Shown in pieces: positions 2,668 to 27,762 of a stretch of 36,751 bases of DNA. The notes under the pieces are model-generated. The model was given only the letters and a program-made list of their open reading frames with translations, did not search any database and was not told where the DNA came from. The stretch lies in contig MHMM01000013.1 of the NCBI GenBank assembly GCA_001821555.1, positions 1-36,751 of the forward strand, written 5' to 3'. This stretch comes from Candidatus Nealsonbacteria bacterium RIFOXYB1_FULL_40_15. GTDB lineage: Bacteria > Patescibacteriota > Minisyncoccia > Minisyncoccales > GWA2-38-27. The translations under genes were made by a program, and so were the position numbers. Numbering within the stretch: position 1 is the first letter of the stretch; each line of letters starts with the position of its first letter.

Positions 2668-4674
2668 ATGAAACTTGTAATCGTAGAAAGCCCGACAAAA
2701 TCAAAAACGATAGAAAAGTTCCTAGGAAAAGAGTATAAAGTTCTATCGTCTTTTGGACATATTAGAGATCTCCCAAAGAGCTCTTTGGGCGTAGATCTTG
2801 AAAAAGACTTCCAGCCCAAATATGTAATTCCTTCTAAATCTAGAAAGGTAATTTCTGAATTAAAAAAAGAATCCAAGAAAGCAGGGGAAATCATACTGGC
2901 AACCGATGAAGACAGGGAGGGAGAGGCCATTGCTTGGCATCTTTCAGAGGCCCTGAAGATAGAAAATCCGAAAAGAGTGGTTTTCCATGAGATAACAAAG
3001 CAAGCGATTGAAGACGCCTTCAGAACCCCTAGGGAGCTGGATATGAACCTGGTCAACGCCCAGCAGGCCAGAAGAATACTGGACAGGATCGTAGGATACA
3101 AGCTCTCGCCTTTCCTTTGGAAAAAGGTAGCCAAGGGCCTCTCGGCGGGAAGGGTTCAGTCTGTCGCAGTGCGACTTATAGTAGAAAGGGAAAGGGAGAG
3201 GGAGAAATTCCAAAAAGAAGAATACTGGACAATAAAAGCCACGTTCTTAAAAGATAACAAAGAATTTGAATCCTTTTTATCCAAAAAGAATGGAAAGAGT
3301 TTGGAAAAACTGGAAATAAAGTCAAAAGAACAAGCAGAAAAGATAAAAAAAGAGCTTGAGTTTTTGCCTTACAAAGTTTCCAGCGTAGAAAAAAAGGAAT
3401 CCGTAAAGAACCCCTTTCCGCCCTTCACTACAAGCTCTTTACAGCAGGAAGCTTGGAATAAATTCAGATATCCTGCAAAAATGACAATGAAAATCGCCCA
3501 GGACCTGTACGAAAAAGGATTCATAACCTACCACAGAACGGATTCGGTCAACCTTTCGGATTTCTCCTTGAATTCAGCTAAGAAATTTATAACAGAAGCT
3601 TTCGGAAAAAACTATCATTCTTTCAGAAAATACAAAGCCAAAGGAAAAACCCAGGAAGCCCATGAAGCAATAAGGCCTGCGTATCCTGAAAAAAGGCCCG
3701 AAGATTCAGGATTAGAAAAACAGCACTTCAAAATTTATGACATTATTTGGAGAAAGTTTATGTCTTCCCAAATGAGCCAAGCCATATTTGATTCGGTTGC
3801 CATAGACATTTCAGGCGGAGAATATGAGTTTAGATCAACCGGGCAGACATTGAAGTTTGACGGATTCTTAAAAGTCTATCCGATGAAGTTTGAAGAAACA
3901 GAGCTTCCAGATTTAAAAAGGGAAGATCCTCTCAATATTCAGGATATTTTGCCCGAACAGCATTTCACCCAGCCCCCTCCCAGATACACAGAGGCAAGCA
4001 TAATAAAACAGCTGGAAGAAAACGGAATAGGAAGGCCCTCAACCTATGCTCCCATCATCTCAACCATACAAGCCAGGAACTATATTGAAAAAGATGAGAA
4101 TAGGAGATTTAAGCCGACAGAAATAGGAATCGTGGTAAATGATATATTAGTAGAACACTTCCCTGTTGTCGTGGATATAAAGTTTACCGCAAAAATGGAG
4201 AACGAGCTTGACGAAGTGGCAGAAGGGAAAGACACCTGGGAAAAAACCTGCAGGGATTTTTACGAACCCTTCAAAAAGAATCTTGAAGAAAAATACGAAG
4301 AGGTGGAAAAGAAAGATATAACCGATAAGCCGACAGACAAAATATGCCCTAAGTGCGGGTCTCCTTTGATAGAAAAACTAGGCAGATACGGGAGATTCTA
4401 TGCCTGCTCTAAGTTTCCGGAGTGCAAATACACTGAATCCCTAAAGAAAGACGCACTGGACGTCCCTTGTCCAAAATGCGGAAAAGGAAAACTCGCAGGA
4501 AAAAGAACAAAGAAGGGAAAGATATTCTACGGATGCAACAGGTTCCCTGAATGCGATTTTGCCTTGTGGGACAAGCCGACAGGAGAGAAATGCGAAAAGT
4601 GCGGATCTCTGCTCGTTCAAAAAGGAAAGCAGATCAAATGCTCTAATAAGGATTGCGATTTTAAGAAAAAATAG
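2668..4674 (+). CDS. topA: DNA topoisomerase I (type IA)
   Basis: Relaxes negative supercoils by a transient 5'-phosphotyrosine break in one strand. The N-terminal TOPRIM domain shows IVESPTKSKT (residues 4-13) and DEDREGEAIAWH (D80, D82 metal ligands). The catalytic tyrosine is Y288 in GFITYHRTDS. The C-terminus carries three zinc-ribbon repeats, each with CxxC pairs (CPKCG...CSKFPEC, CPKCG...CNRFPEC, CEKCG...CSNKDC), which bind single-stranded DNA. At 668 residues it is a normal bacterial-length enzyme with a reduced zinc tail. The open frame extends 16 codons upstream to 2620, but the promoter -10 lies inside that extension and MKLVIVESPTKS is the canonical start, so 2668 is chosen. It follows mfd by 54 bp with its own promoter. 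Confidence 0.97.
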   Translation: MKLVIVESPTKSKTIEKFLGKEYKVLSSFGHIRDLPKSSLGVDLEKDFQPKYVIPSKSRKVISELKKESKKAGEIILATDEDREGEAIAWHLSEALKIENPKRVVFHEITKQAIEDAFRTPRELDMNLVNAQQARRILDRIVGYKLSPFLWKKVAKGLSAGRVQSVAVRLIVEREREREKFQKEEYWTIKATFLKDNKEFESFLSKKNGKSLEKLEIKSKEQAEKIKKELEFLPYKVSSVEKKESVKNPFPPFTTSSLQQEAWNKFRYPAKMTMKIAQDLYEKGFITYHRTDSVNLSDFSLNSAKKFITEAFGKNYHSFRKYKAKGKTQEAHEAIRPAYPEKRPEDSGLEKQHFKIYDIIWRKFMSSQMSQAIFDSVAIDISGGEYEFRSTGQTLKFDGFLKVYPMKFEETELPDLKREDPLNIQDILPEQHFTQPPPRYTEASIIKQLEENGIGRPSTYAPIISTIQARNYIEKDENRRFKPTEIGIVVNDILVEHFPVVVDIKFTAKMENELDEVAEGKDTWEKTCRDFYEPFKKNLEEKYEEVEKKDITDKPTDKICPKCGSPLIEKLGRYGRFYACSKFPECKYTESLKKDALDVPCPKCGKGKLAGKRTKKGKIFYGCNRFPECDFALWDKPTGEKCEKCGSLLVQKGKQIKCSNKDCDFKKK

Positions 4675-4689
4675 TAAAATAAAATATCA

Positions 4690-4773
4690 GCCGAGGTGGC
4701 GAAATTGGCAAACGCACAGGTTTCAAAAACCTGCGAGAGTAATCTCTTGAGGGTTCAAGTCCCTCCCTCGGCA
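4690..4773 (+). tRNA. tRNA-Leu (anticodon CAA)
   Basis: The acceptor arms GCCGAGG (4690-4696) and CCTCGGC (4766-4772) pair perfectly, with discriminator A at 4773. The anticodon arm is CAGGT-TTCAAAA-ACCTG, giving anticodon CAA. A long variable arm (CGAGAGTAATCTCTTG) marks the class II leucine tRNA, and the T arm is GAGGG-TTCAAGT-CCCTC. No CCA is encoded. The 3' part (4750-4775) is repeated exactly at 5486-5511 and acts as the attachment site of the element downstream, so an insertion there leaves the tRNA intact. Confidence 0.97.
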
Positions 4774-4775
4774 CT
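4750..4775 (+). repeat. Attachment-site copy inside tRNA-Leu (left)
   Basis: A 26-bp block covering the T arm from its second base, the 3' acceptor strand, the discriminator and two more bases. It is identical to 5486-5511. A direct repeat of a tRNA 3' end is the classic footprint of tyrosine-recombinase integration into tRNA genes. Confidence 0.85.
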
Positions 4776-4867
4776 ATTTGTAGGTTTCCGCCAAAGGCGA
4801 GACCCCGCTAAGGCGGGGCAACCCCACCTCGGGCACCAGTTTTTTGATTACTCCCAAGAGGCGACAC

Positions 4868-4896
4868 TTGCTTCCTATTGACTTTTGTGGTATAAA
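4868..4896 (+). promoter_or_regulatory. Promoter of cassette 2
   Basis: TTGCTT (4868-4873), a 17-bp spacer and TATAAA (4891-4896), with TG at 4888-4889 as an extended -10. The TGTGGTATAAA block resembles the topA promoter. A leader of about 90 nt leads to the AGGAGG at 4975-4980. Confidence 0.55.
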
Positions 4897-4989
4897 TGCT
4901 ATCCTTGAATATTGTCGGCATCATAACCGATAGTCGCCGTCCGCACGGTGTGGCGGCAAAATCTGAACCTTAACAGGAGGCAAAACGCC

Positions 4990-5361
4990 ATGCAATTTCC
5001 AATGAGAGATGAAATGACGGAAGATCAAGTTGCCGCCAACGTTGCGGCACAGCTCGTTCCCGGAAAGTACTATCGCTTCGCCCCCCCGATCATGGCAACA
5101 GCCGTCCCGGTCGGCGGACCCAACGTCTGTAAGCTCGAGGAGTGCGAATTCGATCGTGGCTGGTAAATCGGTCTAGTGAATGGCAACCATGTCTTCCAGG
5201 GCAAGCCGGTGAACGACGAACGCATCATCCCAACGCCACCAGGCTATCAGGACGTGCCGAATTTGAACGAGATCTTGGAGCAACTCCGGGACAGTTATTT
5301 CCACGTTCTGTTCATCGACGGAAGCCAGGCGGTGCTCGACACTGACCAGGGTCATCACTGA
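4990..5361 (+). pseudogene. Cassette 2 gene, unknown function, interrupted by one in-frame TAA
   Basis: AGGAGG at 4975-4980 is 9 nt before the ATG at 4990. The frame runs 58 codons (MQFPMRDEMTEDQVAANVAA...CKLEECEFDRGW) to TAA at 5164-5166, then continues in the same frame as IGLVNGNHVFQGKPVNDERI...EQLRDSYFHVLFIDGSQAVL to the stop at 5361. Nothing else separates the halves, so it looks like one gene of 123 sense codons broken by a single nonsense change. Two alternatives remain: translation restart at the GTG at 5176, which lacks a ribosome binding site, or readthrough. I do not recognise the family. The product would be a soluble acidic protein without membrane segments. Its codon use (C/G third positions) is unlike the A/T-rich host genes. 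Confidence 0.6.
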
Positions 5362-5403
5362 CCCACACCTGCAGCGATACGAACACGCCAGTCGCAGAAC
5401 CAT

Positions 5404-5439
5404 GGGCGCGGCACGACAAGTGTCCCGCCCCCTTTTTTT
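5404..5439 (+). terminator. Intrinsic terminator of cassette 2
   Basis: An 11-bp stem (GGGCGCGGCAC at 5404-5414 with GTGTCCCGCCC at 5420-5430, one C-C mismatch and one G-T pair), loop GACAA, then CC and seven T at 5433-5439. It insulates the element from the convergent host operon. Confidence 0.85.
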
Positions 5440-5485
5440 GATTTTTGATTTAAGATTTTTTGTAAAAGACTGCGCCAAGACTGGA

Positions 5486-5511
5486 AGGGTTCAAGTCCCT
5501 CCCTCGGCACT
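5486..5511 (+). repeat. Attachment-site copy (right)
   Basis: Exact 26-bp copy of the tRNA-Leu 3' end at 4750-4775. The bases before it do not extend into anticodon- or D-arm sequence, so this is a junction copy and not a second tRNA gene. Confidence 0.85.
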
Positions 5512-5559
5512 TGGATTTAGTTAAACCTGGGAAAAAATAAATGATTTTTATAGGCGTAT

Positions 5560-6108
5560 TCAAGAAGTTTTCTTTTTCAGTTCATTCTTAAGAATTCGGC
5601 AGAAATAAGAAAATGAGTAAAATGCCAAACCGAATATAGAGATTAAAACAGATACTATAAAACCTGCCAAATCAAACTTTTCACCATAAAAATTAAACAC
5701 TGCAAAACTGATAATTATTAGGAGAAGATAAGCTATTTCAATAATAAGCAGTTTATATGCGAACCTTAGTTCAAATTTGAAATCTTTAAACGTTTTCTTG
5801 AGAAAAAGAGAGGCCAAATACCCGATTATCGGAAAAGCAATCAAAACCAATGCCACTATAGCATTGATAAATTCTTGCGGACTTTTTATTGAAAAAAGAG
5901 GTAGCAAAAATTCCATTACAGACCCAAACTTATGAAAAAATAATACATTTTCATTGCTCATCACCATTATCGGAATAAGAAAAAATAACAATCCTATTAT
6001 TATAGAATTAGATATAAATAAATACTCTAAATAGCTTAAGATCTTAAGGAAAATAATTTTCTTTAGAGAAAAATTGCTTTCAAAAATACGCATGAGATTC
6101 TTGAACAA
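5560..6108 (-). CDS. Hypothetical multi-pass membrane protein
   Basis: 182 residues with a basic N-terminal stretch and about four hydrophobic membrane segments (IIIGLLFFLIPIMVM, FINAIVALVLIAFPIIGYLA, LLIIEIAYLLLIIISFAVF, IVSVLISIFGLAFYSF), ending in a lysine-rich tail. I recognise no catalytic motif or family. It is the last gene of the leftward operon and starts 7 bp after the PAP2 phosphatase gene, so it may act with that enzyme at the membrane. There is no visible ribosome binding site. The right-hand attachment copy of the tRNA-Leu element ends 48 bp beyond its stop. Confidence 0.75.
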   Translation of the reverse strand: MFKNLMRIFESNFSLKKIIFLKILSYLEYLFISNSIIIGLLFFLIPIMVMSNENVLFFHKFGSVMEFLLPLFSIKSPQEFINAIVALVLIAFPIIGYLASLFLKKTFKDFKFELRFAYKLLIIEIAYLLLIIISFAVFNFYGEKFDLAGFIVSVLISIFGLAFYSFSYFCRILKNELKKKTS

Positions 6109-21373: not shown

Positions 21374-21401
21374 CTACGCTATTTTTAATTAAATTTGAAA
21401 C

Positions 21402-21450
21402 AAAAAAACAAGGGGTCTCCATCCGCCCTGGGCGGATGGAAAACCCCTTT
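21402..21450 (-). terminator. Intrinsic terminator of cassette 3
   Basis: Minus-strand nested hairpin: outer arms AAGGGG/CCCCTT and inner perfect arms CCATCCGCC/GGCGGATGG (21419-21439), followed by TTG and a run of T (the A tract at 21402-21408). It separates cassette 3 from the peptidase promoter just downstream. Between it and the gene stop is a GC-rich imperfect palindrome around 21465-21485 (CCGAAGCTCAGCGAAGG). Confidence 0.85.
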
Positions 21451-21547
21451 TGGCCACGCCTTGCCTCACCGAAGCTCAGCGAAGGCGGGAACGCAAGGTT
21501 CAAGAGAAAAGGATTCGAAAGAACCGAGTGTTTGAGGTTTCGAGCAT

Positions 21548-22432
21548 CTACTGCGGGAGGAACCCGGACGAGGAACCGTAGCAGCCGCTGGCATGGCCGG
21601 CAAAGAAGCCGTCGAACTCGACCCTGCCATCATCGAAGCGGAAGTACGGGGCGCCGTCAAAGGAACCATCCTCAACGCAATCGTACTCGGCGCCGGCACA
21701 GTCGATCCAGAGATCGTTGTGGTCGGCGAGCCGTTCCAGGTGTGTGAGGAGCATGCAGGCGATGGTGAACGGATCGTTCCCGAACTCCATGCTCGGCATG
21801 ACTTCCAGTGCCCGACGGACGGAACGGCCGCGGTGACGGAAGCCAAACTGGTAGAGAATCACGAGGATGTCGTTCCCTTCCTGCTGCTGGCCGAGCATCT
21901 CCAAGGCCTTTTGGGTCTTGGCACGAAGACGCAGGCGATCGGGCCCGATCTGACCTTCACGGTAGTTGCAGAACGCGCCGTTACAGGTCTGCTTGATCAG
22001 GTCGAGCACCTTCTGCAGGGCTTCCTCGTAGGTCTTGCCGACCTTCTGCCATCGCGGGATAGCGAAGAAGCCTTCGGCACCTTCGGGGATGGGCTGTTCA
22101 GCCAACTTCTCGTTGGCGCAACCGATGCCCGGCAGGAGTTCCTGCAACCGCTTGACCTGATCGGCGACGCTCTTGCTGTTGGGCTTGTAGCCCGACAGGT
22201 AGCCGTAGGTCGACTCGACTTCCTCGTCGGCGAACTTGTTGGGAATGGACAGCTCGCGGATCGCACTGATAACACGAGCTTCGAGATCATCGCCGTTTGC
22301 GATGAGCTTCTGAGCGCCGTCCTTGTCGGGGACACCGTCGTGGAACACACGGTCAACCGCGTCTTCCACCAACCGCCTGACTTGCTCTTTCTGACCGTCA
22401 GTGATGATGCTGGATGTGATCGATGTACTCAT
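21548..22432 (-). CDS. GC-rich cassette 3 protein, unknown function, variable-looking C-terminus
   Basis: 294 residues from the ATG at 22432, which is 8 nt after AAAGGGG; GTG (22441) and ATG (22438) lie in frame but too close to that site. The N-terminal half is helical and charged (DGQKEQVRRLVEDAVDRVF, DDLEARVISAIRELSI, YEEALQKVLDLIKQTC). The middle has KTQKALEMLGQQQEG and FRHRGRSVRRALEVMPSMEF. The C-terminus is rich in D, G, F, S and C (DGRVEFDGFFAGHASGCYGS), with every codon from D to Y in the segment 21578-21613 ending in C or T. I do not recognise a named family. It is far more GC-rich than glyS on one side and the peptidase on the other, and has its own promoter, leader and terminator. 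The long open frame on the opposite strand (21593-22459) lacks these signals. Confidence 0.8.
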   Translation of the reverse strand: MSTSITSSIITDGQKEQVRRLVEDAVDRVFHDGVPDKDGAQKLIANGDDLEARVISAIRELSIPNKFADEEVESTYGYLSGYKPNSKSVADQVKRLQELLPGIGCANEKLAEQPIPEGAEGFFAIPRWQKVGKTYEEALQKVLDLIKQTCNGAFCNYREGQIGPDRLRLRAKTQKALEMLGQQQEGNDILVILYQFGFRHRGRSVRRALEVMPSMEFGNDPFTIACMLLTHLERLADHNDLWIDCAGAEYDCVEDGSFDGAPYFRFDDGRVEFDGFFAGHASGCYGSSSGFLPQ

Positions 22433-22449
22433 CGTCATCACCCCTTTCT

Positions 22450-22487
22450 GTCCGCCTAAGGCGGACGAATAACAATGTGCTTCGTCC
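22450..22487 (-). promoter_or_regulatory. Leader of cassette 3 with two overlapping hairpins
   Basis: GTCCGCC/GGCGGAC (22450-22466, 3-nt loop) and GGACGAA/TTCGTCC (22463-22487, 11-nt loop) share four bases, so they cannot both form fully. The first ends two bases before the AGAAAGGGG ribosome binding region. The layout could act as an RNA switch or attenuator, or simply be a mobile-element end palindrome. Confidence 0.4.
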
Positions 22488-22515
22488 TAAGAACATCTGT
22501 TAGAATCTAGAATTA

Positions 22516-22543
22516 ATTATATCAAATTAATATATTTTGTCAA
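22516..22543 (-). promoter_or_regulatory. Promoter of cassette 3 embedded in the end of glyS
   Basis: On the minus strand TTGACA (22538-22543), a 16-bp spacer and TATAAT (22516-22521). TTGACA is also the in-frame Leu-Thr codon pair of the glyS C-terminus (SLTKYINLI), and the -10 overlaps the glyS TAA (22517-22519). Both hexamers are perfect matches. Confidence 0.75.
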
Positions 22544-23821
22544 TGAATCAACGGCCACTCTCTCTTGTTTCATAGTATCCCTGTCTCTGACAGTTACCGT
22601 ATCGTCATTCAAGGTATCAAAGTCTATCGTGATGCAGAAAGGAGTTCCTATCTCATCCTGCCTCCTATATCTTCTTCCTATGGCTCCAGATTCATCATAC
22701 TGAACATTAAAGTCTCTTTTAAGAAGATCAAAAACCTGCCTTGCTTTCTTGACCAAATCCTCTTTGTTCTTAACCAAAGGAAGAACCGCAATCTTAACAG
22801 GGGAAAGTCTTTTATCCATTCTTAAGACTGTTTCAACTTCTTTGACTGATTTTTCTCCCCTTCCGCCCTCAACTTCTTGATAAGCTTCAGCAATAAAAGC
22901 AAGCAGGGACCTGTCCGCCCCCACAGATGTCTCTATAACGTATGGATAAAAACCCTCGTATTTCAAATCTTCTCCTGAATGTTTTGAATGGTTGGAGAGA
23001 TCCCAATCGCCCCTGTTATGGACTCCTTCTACTTCTTTCCATCCGAAAGGAAAGTTATATAAAATATCTACTGCTTTTCTCGCATAATGGGCAAGCTCTC
23101 CTTTCGGAACTTCGTAAATCTTCAGATTCTTCTTAGAAATGCCCAGTCCATAATACCAGTTCAATCTCTGGTCCAACCAGTAATCAAAGAATTTATCAGC
23201 GTCTTTGGAGTCGCAGAACCACTGCATCTCCATCTGTTCAAATTCTCTCGTGCGAAAGATAAAATCCTTGGGAGTAATTTCATTTCTGAATGCTTTTCCT
23301 ATCTGGGCTATTCCAAAAGGAAGTTTCGCCCTCATTGTCTGGAGAACATTTTTAAAATTAACATATATTCCCTGGCAGGTTTCAGCCCTTAAATAGGTTG
23401 TTGAGGCATCTTCCTCAACGGGCCCGACGAAAGTTTTCATCATAAGATTAAACTTCCTGGGCTCTGAAAGCTCTCCTCCGCATTCAGGACATCTATCCTC
23501 TTCCAAAAGATCTTTCCTGAACCTTTTTTTGCATTTATTGCACTCCACTAGCTCGTCAGCAAAACCTGCCGTAAGGTGTCCGGAAGCTTCCCATACTTTA
23601 GGGCTCATAAGAATAGAGGAATCTAGTCCGAAAATATCTTCCCTGCTCCTAACCATTTCATTCCACCACTCCCTCTTTATATTATTCTTCATTTCAACCC
23701 CTAGAGGACCGAAATCATAACAGGATCCAAACCCTCCGTATATTTCAGAAGATTGGAAGATAAAACCCCTTCTCTTTGAGAATGAAACTATTTTCTGCAT
23801 CAGATCGGATTCTTTTTTCAT
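22517..23821 (-). CDS. glyS: Glycyl-tRNA synthetase, homodimeric class II type
   Basis: Class II synthetase of the eukaryotic/archaeal-like alpha2 form. Seen: the N-terminal RRGFIFQSSEIYGGFGSCYDFGPLG block, motif 2 in FRNEITPKDFIFRTREFEQME, motif 3 in YVIETSVGADRSLLAFIAEAY, an insert with CNKCKKRF...CPECGG zinc-type cysteines, and an anticodon-binding domain starting near IAVLPLVKNKEDL and containing GAIGRRYRRQDEIGTPFCIT. 434 residues, near the usual 430-460. It begins 4 bp after the DUF11-like gene and is last in the recO operon. Its final codons contain the promoter of cassette 3. Confidence 0.97.
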   Translation of the reverse strand: MKKESDLMQKIVSFSKRRGFIFQSSEIYGGFGSCYDFGPLGVEMKNNIKREWWNEMVRSREDIFGLDSSILMSPKVWEASGHLTAGFADELVECNKCKKRFRKDLLEEDRCPECGGELSEPRKFNLMMKTFVGPVEEDASTTYLRAETCQGIYVNFKNVLQTMRAKLPFGIAQIGKAFRNEITPKDFIFRTREFEQMEMQWFCDSKDADKFFDYWLDQRLNWYYGLGISKKNLKIYEVPKGELAHYARKAVDILYNFPFGWKEVEGVHNRGDWDLSNHSKHSGEDLKYEGFYPYVIETSVGADRSLLAFIAEAYQEVEGGRGEKSVKEVETVLRMDKRLSPVKIAVLPLVKNKEDLVKKARQVFDLLKRDFNVQYDESGAIGRRYRRQDEIGTPFCITIDFDTLNDDTVTVRDRDTMKQERVAVDSLTKYINLI

Positions 23822-26511: not shown

Positions 26512-26831
26512 TATTTATTTATATCAAAATAATGCTGTATTGTCATTCTCGCATAATTATCACCCGGAAAACAGAGTCTATAAAAATAACAAAGGTAATA
26601 TTTTTCTTCCATATGGTAAAAATGTGTTACCAAAAAGAAAAGTGACCTTATTTCTAATGTAACTGCAGGTCTTGTTCCGAAGAATGACAAAAAATATAAT
26701 TTCCGCTATAAACTCTCCCGAACGGTTTTTTGTTTCCTAAAAGAATCATCGTTTGTTTAATTTTTTCGGCATTTCCATGATTCACGATTCGCCTATTACC
26801 GCTTTACATTATACACATTTCCATCCCAAAG
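26512..26831. other. Gene-free stretch between the recO operon and cassette 4
   Basis: A/T-rich sequence with no supported gene. It holds the promoter of the recO operon at its left edge, an exact 10-bp inverted repeat (TTGTCATTCT at 26540-26549 and AGAATGACAA at 26681-26690), and a small hairpin GGTAA/TTACC around 26615-26631. The open frame crossing its right end on the plus strand runs through the cassette 4 terminator and is not credible. Confidence 0.5.
26518..26526 (-). promoter_or_regulatory. Extended -10 of the recO operon
   Basis: TGA-TATAAA on the minus strand, then exactly 6 nt to the ATG at 26509-26511, with no ribosome binding site. Same layout as leuS and smpB. Confidence 0.5.
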
Positions 26832-26877
26832 AAAAAGCCCTTTGCAAATTCCACCTTGATGGAAAATACAAAGGGCT
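26832..26877 (-). terminator. Intrinsic terminator of cassette 4
   Basis: Minus-strand hairpin with outer arms AGCCCTTTG/CAAAGGGCT (26836-26844 and 26869-26877) and inner TTCCA/TGGAA, followed by TTTTT-C-TTT. A separate GC palindrome CCTGCC-TATC-GGCAGG lies at 26882-26897, between the gene and the terminator. Confidence 0.85.
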
Positions 26878-26938
26878 GAAGCCTGCCTATCGGCAGGAAG
26901 ATCCAAAGGGCAAGGACAAAATATCCGAGACCAAAGGA

Positions 26939-27610
26939 CTAATTGATGACACTTGCGAGCGAAGCGGACGGGCTACCGGCACCCCAGCCAAAGCCGAGCC
27001 AGAGGCAGTCCCAGCGCCACTCTCCGCCGTGGAAAAACAGGCACAGCACACGGCGACTGCCGCCCGGGTGGCGCAGGATGAAACCAAAGAAGTAGATTCG
27101 GGTTCCGATCTTCCCTGACTTACGAAGACGCTCGAGAACGCTGTCTCCGGGCTTGCCTTCTGCTTTCTTAACTTGGTAATCATTCCATAGAGCTAGGAAG
27201 GCTTTGGCGCCCAGTTGTTGATTCTTGCTGGCGCCGGCCCGTTTCATCTTCTCTTCGCCATGGATGCTTGACTCACCCTCTTTGAGATGAGTCTCGAGTA
27301 TAATCCGCTCGAAATCCACGACATCGGGCTCCTGTACGCAGCTTTCCTCGCCCTCCAGTCCATTGCCGTCAGCCGGACCTTTCCAGAAAGCCCAACCTTG
27401 TCCGATGAATTCGGAGGGGTTGAGGGCCTTGTCCAGAACCAGTTTGAGGCTGACGCGGACAATAGTAGCCAGACCCATGAGGACCAGCTTGACTTGGGCC
27501 AGCACTCCGTTGGAATTCTGACCGAGCGCAGTCAGATCAGCAGGAGTGTATCCATGTTCCTGTAATGCATCTGCCAACTGATGAATTTGACCTTCGATAA
27601 ACTGAGACAT
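26939..27610 (-). CDS. GC-rich cassette 4 protein, possible diversified C-terminal segment
   Basis: 223 residues; start ATG 27608-27610 with AGAAAGAAGG ending 6 nt upstream. The N-terminal part is helical (MSQFIEGQIHQLADALQEHG, LGQNSNGVLAQVKLVLMGLA), then an acidic middle and KNQQLGAKAFLALWNDYQVK. The C-terminus reads RVLCLFFHGGEWRWDCLWLG and FGWGAGSPSASLAS, a Trp/Gly-rich tail. Between the fixed Trp codons (199-213, 26972-27016) every codon ends in C or T, as expected if AAY/GAY/TAY codons had been changed at their adenines. From memory, variable tails of this form occur in CPR target proteins of diversity-generating retroelements; I could not check this. No reverse transcriptase is in the window. 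Composition and expression signals set it apart from ileS, recO and their neighbours. Confidence 0.8.
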   Translation of the reverse strand: MSQFIEGQIHQLADALQEHGYTPADLTALGQNSNGVLAQVKLVLMGLATIVRVSLKLVLDKALNPSEFIGQGWAFWKGPADGNGLEGEESCVQEPDVVDFERIILETHLKEGESSIHGEEKMKRAGASKNQQLGAKAFLALWNDYQVKKAEGKPGDSVLERLRKSGKIGTRIYFFGFILRHPGGSRRVLCLFFHGGEWRWDCLWLGFGWGAGSPSASLASVIN

Positions 27611-27625
27611 GTCTCACCTTCTTTC

Positions 27626-27639
27626 TGGCACGTGTGCCA
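27626..27639. promoter_or_regulatory. Palindrome next to the cassette 4 ribosome binding site
   Basis: TGGCAC-GT-GTGCCA ends directly before AGAAAGAAGGTG on the minus strand. Cassette 3 has a GC palindrome in almost the same place (22450-22466). It could be an operator or an RNA hairpin controlling translation. Confidence 0.4.
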
Positions 27640-27762
27640 ATTAAATAGATTGTTGACCGCCGCAGTAGCAGTCACATCTAGAAAATGCTGATTTAATCGG
27701 CATCTTTTGGATATAACTGCTTTTTACAACAACCCTCCAGGATAACAAAGAACTATAGCACC

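Follow-up and report, generated by a model that had tools for sequence, protein, structure and literature searches.

Integrative elements that use the 3' end of tRNA genes, islands and satellites among them, restore the tRNA and leave a second copy of its end, as a direct repeat, at their far side, and tycheposons and other cargo-only tRNA elements consist of cargo beside tRNA genes without a recombinase of their own. The locus described here lies in the window, a stretch of 36,751 nucleotides (G000:C13) of Candidatus Nealsonbacteria bacterium RIFOXYB1_FULL_40_15, whose 761-kb genome is distributed over 21 contigs and is 99% complete. This locus resembles the tRNA 3'-end integrative elements in its apparent 3'-end insertion, the restored tRNA and the repeat at the far side, but differs from them in measuring 736 bp, in having one gene and no integrase, and in the occurrence of a tandem pair of such units in the relative G011. 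Cargo adjacent to a tRNA without a recombinase is shared with tycheposons, although the window unit is much smaller, belongs to a different lineage and has no identified helper element. With integron gene cassettes it has in common a one-gene make-up, successive insertion into the same site and a recombinase that would act in trans, whereas the window unit has its own promoter and a tRNA end in place of attC/attI. An integron cassette was considered and rejected, as the motif GTTRRRY is absent in 4750-5511, and so was an integron integrase, with the lone PF00589 protein of the host scoring 105 bits where the integron-integrase cut-off is 265, and matching XerD/XerC best. The tRNA-end footprint is real, and its most likely source is the insertion of a one-gene foreign unit, a passenger, at the 3' end of tRNA-Leu(CAA) with recombination functions supplied in trans, a reading that we hold with moderate confidence.

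A repeated end of tRNA-Leu(CAA)

The tRNA-Leu(CAA) gene, with topA immediately upstream, is intact, and its 3' boundary is placed at 4774 by ARAGORN, one base beyond that given by Rfam. The 26-bp duplication claimed by the sequence-only reading was confirmed, since its two copies are identical at 26 of 26 positions, comprising 24 tRNA bases followed by CT (Table 1). This exact repeat is also unique: allowing up to three mismatches, the 24-base tRNA part occurs twice in the window while 100 shuffles yield no match, a third exact copy is absent from the 761-kb genome, and with up to two mismatches the sole third match genome-wide is another tRNA-Leu on contig 8. A partial tandem duplication of the tRNA, invaded later by unrelated DNA, has a conceivable precedent in the degenerate second tRNA-Arg(CCG) of the same genome. 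However, that reference case reaches z = 9.9 in the tRNA-remnant test, against z = -0.4 for the sequence before 5486, where nothing tRNA-like is present, and the flanks of the two 26-bp copies differ from the first base past the block. The absence of a remnant and the recurrence seen in relatives uphold the earlier preference for insertion, and such a duplication is highly improbable.

Table 1. Positions of the features discussed (window coordinates unless a contig or locus is named)
Feature	Position	Strand	Basis or remark
tRNA-Leu(CAA), intact	4690-4773	+	Rfam RF00005, 60.1 bits
Left 26-bp block: T-stem, T-loop, acceptor 3' strand plus CT	4750-4775	+	repeat search
CCCACCTCGGGCACCA, candidate 3' end of a foreign tRNA-Leu, within the left end of the unit	4823-4838	+	14-nt match
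Promoter, TTGACT (4878-4883), 16-nt spacing, TATCCT (4900-4905)	4878-4905	+	promoter scan
Shine-Dalgarno, AGGAGG	4975-4980	+	sequence
Gene, ATG at 4990, 58 aa to TAA at 5164-5166	4990-5166	+	translation
Terminator, hairpin 5404-5430 then T7	5404-5440	+	sequence and fold
Right 26-bp block: displaced tRNA 3' end	5486-5511	+	repeat search
GC-rich orphan-gene unit with own promoter	21376-22550		
GC-rich orphan-gene unit with own promoter	26776-27700		
Host copy of the non-coding element, after tRNA-Lys(TTT)	G000:C17:40211-40262 (L067:4212-4263)	-	
Host large serine recombinase (only one)	G000:C2:27-365 (L218)		convergent onto tRNA-Gln(CTG), small contig
Further serine recombinases at tRNA 3' ends	L207, L208, L209, L211, L213-L217		

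According to the insertion reading, recombination would have taken place at the 3' end of tRNA-Leu(CAA), its T-arm and 3' end serving as the junction; the tRNA would have been restored by the incoming DNA and the original 26-bp end displaced by 736 bp. Prior to insertion, a single 26-bp block would have abutted TGGATTTAG, giving an empty-site junction CTCGGCACT-TGGATTTAG. The direction of insertion and a circular intermediate are assumed in this scheme, and the excised circle would join GACTGGA to AGGGTTCAAGTCC...CACTATTTG. Because the unit contains no recombination gene, the activity would have to come from elsewhere in the cell, presumably from a trans-acting site-specific recombinase, be it the host Xer protein or a large serine recombinase that targets tRNA genes. 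One feature that counts against insertion is the start of the right-hand copy at tRNA position 50, 4 nt ahead of the T-loop, in which most other copies start.

The next conserved gene, encoding PAP2, lies within 670 nt of tRNA-Leu(CAA) in 16 of 24 relatives, compared with 1345 nt in the window, which favours the insertion reading. Relatives without the insert at this tRNA exist, none of them of the same genus, and the immediate right flank of the unit is not alignable to them. A parallel is found in G011, a member of the same family, in which two different single-gene cassettes follow tRNA-Leu(CAA) in tandem, in the order tRNA, TTGACA, a gene of 135 aa, terminator, an 18-bp copy of the tRNA end, TTGACA, leader, a gene of 379 aa and terminator. 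Both cassettes open with TTGACA right after GGCAC, their leaders are related and their terminators nearly identical. A related leader, with an ORF of 44 aa, also stands straight after tRNA-Leu(CAA) in G005. In G066 the same tRNA is followed by a 334-bp spacer and a 29-bp copy of its end, and the left flank there is a diverged PAP2 fragment about 80% identical to the end of the native PAP2 gene; judged by its sequence, this insert looks like imported donor-locus DNA and not a cassette, which counts against the insertion reading. At the same tRNA, in several genomes, ORFs that appear LAGLIDADG-like by eye begin within a few bases of the 3' end, at L009:1978-2595, L011, L104 and L141.

How common such footprints are was surveyed in 393 distinct tRNAs of the host and its relatives, a sample taken before any search for non-coding elements, with host tRNAs examined in the stretches around them and tRNA-end copies counted from 16 nt upwards. 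Copies of the 3' end were found downstream of the tRNA in 9 of the 393; among the controls, upstream tails numbered one (an entire pseudo-tRNA), upstream heads five and downstream heads zero. In seven of the nine, the copy begins within the T-loop or one base ahead of it, which fits an exchange point within the T-arm. Spacers longer than 300 bp occur in three cases, all of them at tRNA-Leu(CAA), the tRNA sampled most heavily. A short insert was observed at host tRNA-Ser(TGA) (L081, minus strand, 5260-5117), where an 18-bp copy of the tRNA end lies 104 bp downstream; the insert consists of hairpins only, and the displaced copy retains CCA along with a palindromic repeat found after other host tRNAs.

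A compact expression unit between the repeats

The segment between the repeats has 53% GC, against 40% for the window, and the earlier description of it as a GC-rich unit with promoter, Shine-Dalgarno sequence, gene and terminator holds in every part at sequence level, except that the gene, with a TAA in frame after 58 codons, cannot be called plainly intact. The terminator hairpin was recognised from sequence and fold and was not listed by the automatic terminator scan. Beyond the TAA the frame remains open to TGA at 5359-5361, which would make 123 codons in all, and its third-position GC is 0.62 before the stop and 0.72 after it. Two possibilities follow, a short gene or one of 123 codons with a nonsense mutation, the latter being likely; the cargo is probably a passenger whose decay has begun. 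Protein relatives of the gene are absent among 196 genomes of the lineage, Pfam, PHROG and NCBIfam give no family match, phage records yield one weak partial match and viral contigs none, and the unit was not found in plasmids. The single match among genome contigs, in L056, was rejected, since it falls within an extended GC-rich coding stretch and seems to be a motif matched by chance. The earlier statement that the unit lacks an integrase also stands, as 4776-5485 contains neither a long ORF nor a match to any family. A counterpart of the leader (4849-4925), 81% identical, stands ahead of a different GC-rich gene in G061, which represents another family of the same order; leaders are thus common to units whose genes differ.

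One of the features of the left end of the unit is CCCACCTCGGGCACCA, whose first 14 nt equal the tRNA-Leu(CAA/TAA) ends of relatives (three tails) and are followed by CA, completing CCA. A 14-nt match to tRNA-Leu tails was reached by 2 of 200 shuffled elements, and the sequence looks like the end of a different tRNA-Leu. This counts in favour of a foreign insert and bears as well on a serious, if unlikely, rival explanation, namely that DNA from the tRNA locus of a donor entered the cell and recombined at the conserved tRNA-Leu sequence by a general or homology-assisted route, with no site-specific recombinase involved. Such an event is kept alive by the 14-16 nt end of another tRNA-Leu in the unit and by the PAP2 fragment beside tRNA-Leu(CAA) in G066, and the confinement of the three long spacers to this tRNA would agree with it, heavy sampling notwithstanding. 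Against it, the shared stretch of 18-26 bp is short for RecA, and both G011 cassettes begin at an identical base and have tail sequence in common.

Tyrosine recombination at tRNA ends had further been offered by the sequence-only reading as a route of arrival for the other two GC-rich units in the window. This proposal found no support, because neither unit has flanking direct repeats of at least 10 bp, and no repeats are shared; a tRNA within 1.5 kb was found in just 1 of 24 loci of the gene family at 26.9 kb. That family occurs sporadically, in 17 of 247 genomes, a spread that fits transfer.

A structured non-coding element beside tRNA genes

Most tRNA-end copies in this order stem from a small non-coding element and not from inserts of the window type. 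This structured element of about 75-120 nt was found with a covariance model in 66 copies across 30 of 247 genomes of the order, and in 46 of the 66 a tRNA on the same strand ends at most 150 nt upstream, mostly at 38-49 nt, with 14 amino-acid types represented. The sequence past the element matches the end of its own tRNA (z = 23 against swapped assignments), and the commonest tail copy begins exactly at tRNA base 54. In G007, copies of about 112-123 bp lie directly after tRNA-Ser(CGA), tRNA-Ser(TGA), tRNA-Arg(CCT) and tRNA-Gln(CTG), each followed by the end of that same tRNA (diverged at Gln). An empty site for tRNA-Arg(CCT) is present in G011, of the genus of G007, where the flank that follows the tail copy in G007 comes directly after the tRNA.

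The element also carries a match to the tRNA that it accompanies. A GAAC-plus-T-stem segment within it is antisense to bases 49-56 of that tRNA, perfectly so in 19 of 46 cases, and the mean match of 7.12 of 8 positions drops to 6.11 with swapped tRNAs (z = 11). Where the T-stem holds non-Watson-Crick pairs, the element tracks the antisense in six cases and the direct copy in two, and unusual T-loops are matched as well, GTGC of tRNA-Gly by GCAC and GTCC of tRNA-Ile by GGAC. In the modelled structure, changes on both sides are seen in 10 of 14 pairs, in an alignment that was fitted to that structure. Rfam contains no such family, the search returning nothing but tRNAs and, below threshold, unrelated families; no intron family matched the element, and we claim none of the group I intron, group II intron and IS110 bridge-RNA readings.

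As the non-coding element demonstrates that copied tRNA ends in this order can have a source other than an integrase, a repeat of a tRNA 3' end alone points to an integrase less strongly here than it would in ordinary bacteria. It is conceivable, though doubtful, that the 736-bp unit and the G011 array are cargo of an undescribed system in which an element with a T-stem guide inserts at tRNA 3' ends; guided insertion would leave a 21-bp duplication, from tRNA base 54 to one base past the tRNA end. Membership of the window unit in the element family was rejected (covariance model R1 gives at most 1.9 bits in 4600-5700, and model R2 no match overlapping the unit with filters off), and the antisense of the tRNA-Leu T-arm (GAACCCTC) has no site with at least 7 of 8 matches within the insert. 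If the element is guide-directed, its covariation with the T-stem of the neighbouring tRNA would amount to a new way to choose an insertion site.

Recombinases and other genes at tRNA ends

Action of a tyrosine recombinase, as proposed from the sequence, is no more than a possibility. The only Phage_integrase (PF00589) protein of the host, a Xer-type protein of 316 aa in a housekeeping neighbourhood, matches XerC/XerD best. Each of the ten genomes tested, the host and nine relatives, contains exactly one tyrosine recombinase. Serine recombinases do use tRNA 3' ends in this lineage: besides the host gene, nine more end at or overlap tRNA 3' ends in G001, G007, G011 and G176, those of G001 each at its own tRNA (Leu-TAA, Arg-CCT, Ala-GGC, Arg-TCG, Asn-GTT and Ile-GAT). 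The one subjected to domain analysis has resolvase, recombinase and zinc-ribbon domains. Tail copies of at least 12 nt were not found beside these genes, and literature searches on cassettes at tRNA ends, or on serine recombinases, in this lineage returned nothing relevant. A large serine recombinase is only a candidate for action in trans at tRNA-Leu(CAA), and the position of the host enzyme at tRNA-Gln(CTG), not tRNA-Leu(CAA), counts against the insertion reading. The same genes, running to or into tRNA 3' ends, imply that larger elements of that kind exist, of which the window unit could be a remnant after deletion of an integrase and other genes; this is very unlikely, given that the compact expression unit takes up most of the interval from one repeat to the other, that both repeats are exact and that the G011 cassettes belong to the same size class.

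Under the preferred reading of a passenger inserted with recombination in trans, a tRNA end can gather single genes, each equipped with a promoter and a terminator of its own, with no mobility gene adjacent, in a reduced-genome lineage in which every genome tested has one tyrosine recombinase. Such loci would be concrete places to ask how these bacteria gain genes.

Several further tRNAs have short genes close by. At host tRNA-Lys(CTT) (L073:4265-4880), a GC-rich single gene of 155 aa has a TTGACA promoter a few bases past the tRNA, and no right-hand copy of the tRNA end was found there. Short ORFs, judged by eye to be GIY-YIG-like, lie upstream of intact tRNAs at L082 (host tRNA-Gln(TTG)), L138 (tRNA-Leu(CAA) of G201) and L081 (host tRNA-Ser(TGA)), and at L082 and L138 a duplicate of the tRNA 5' half, split by a GC-rich palindrome, stands ahead of the ORF.
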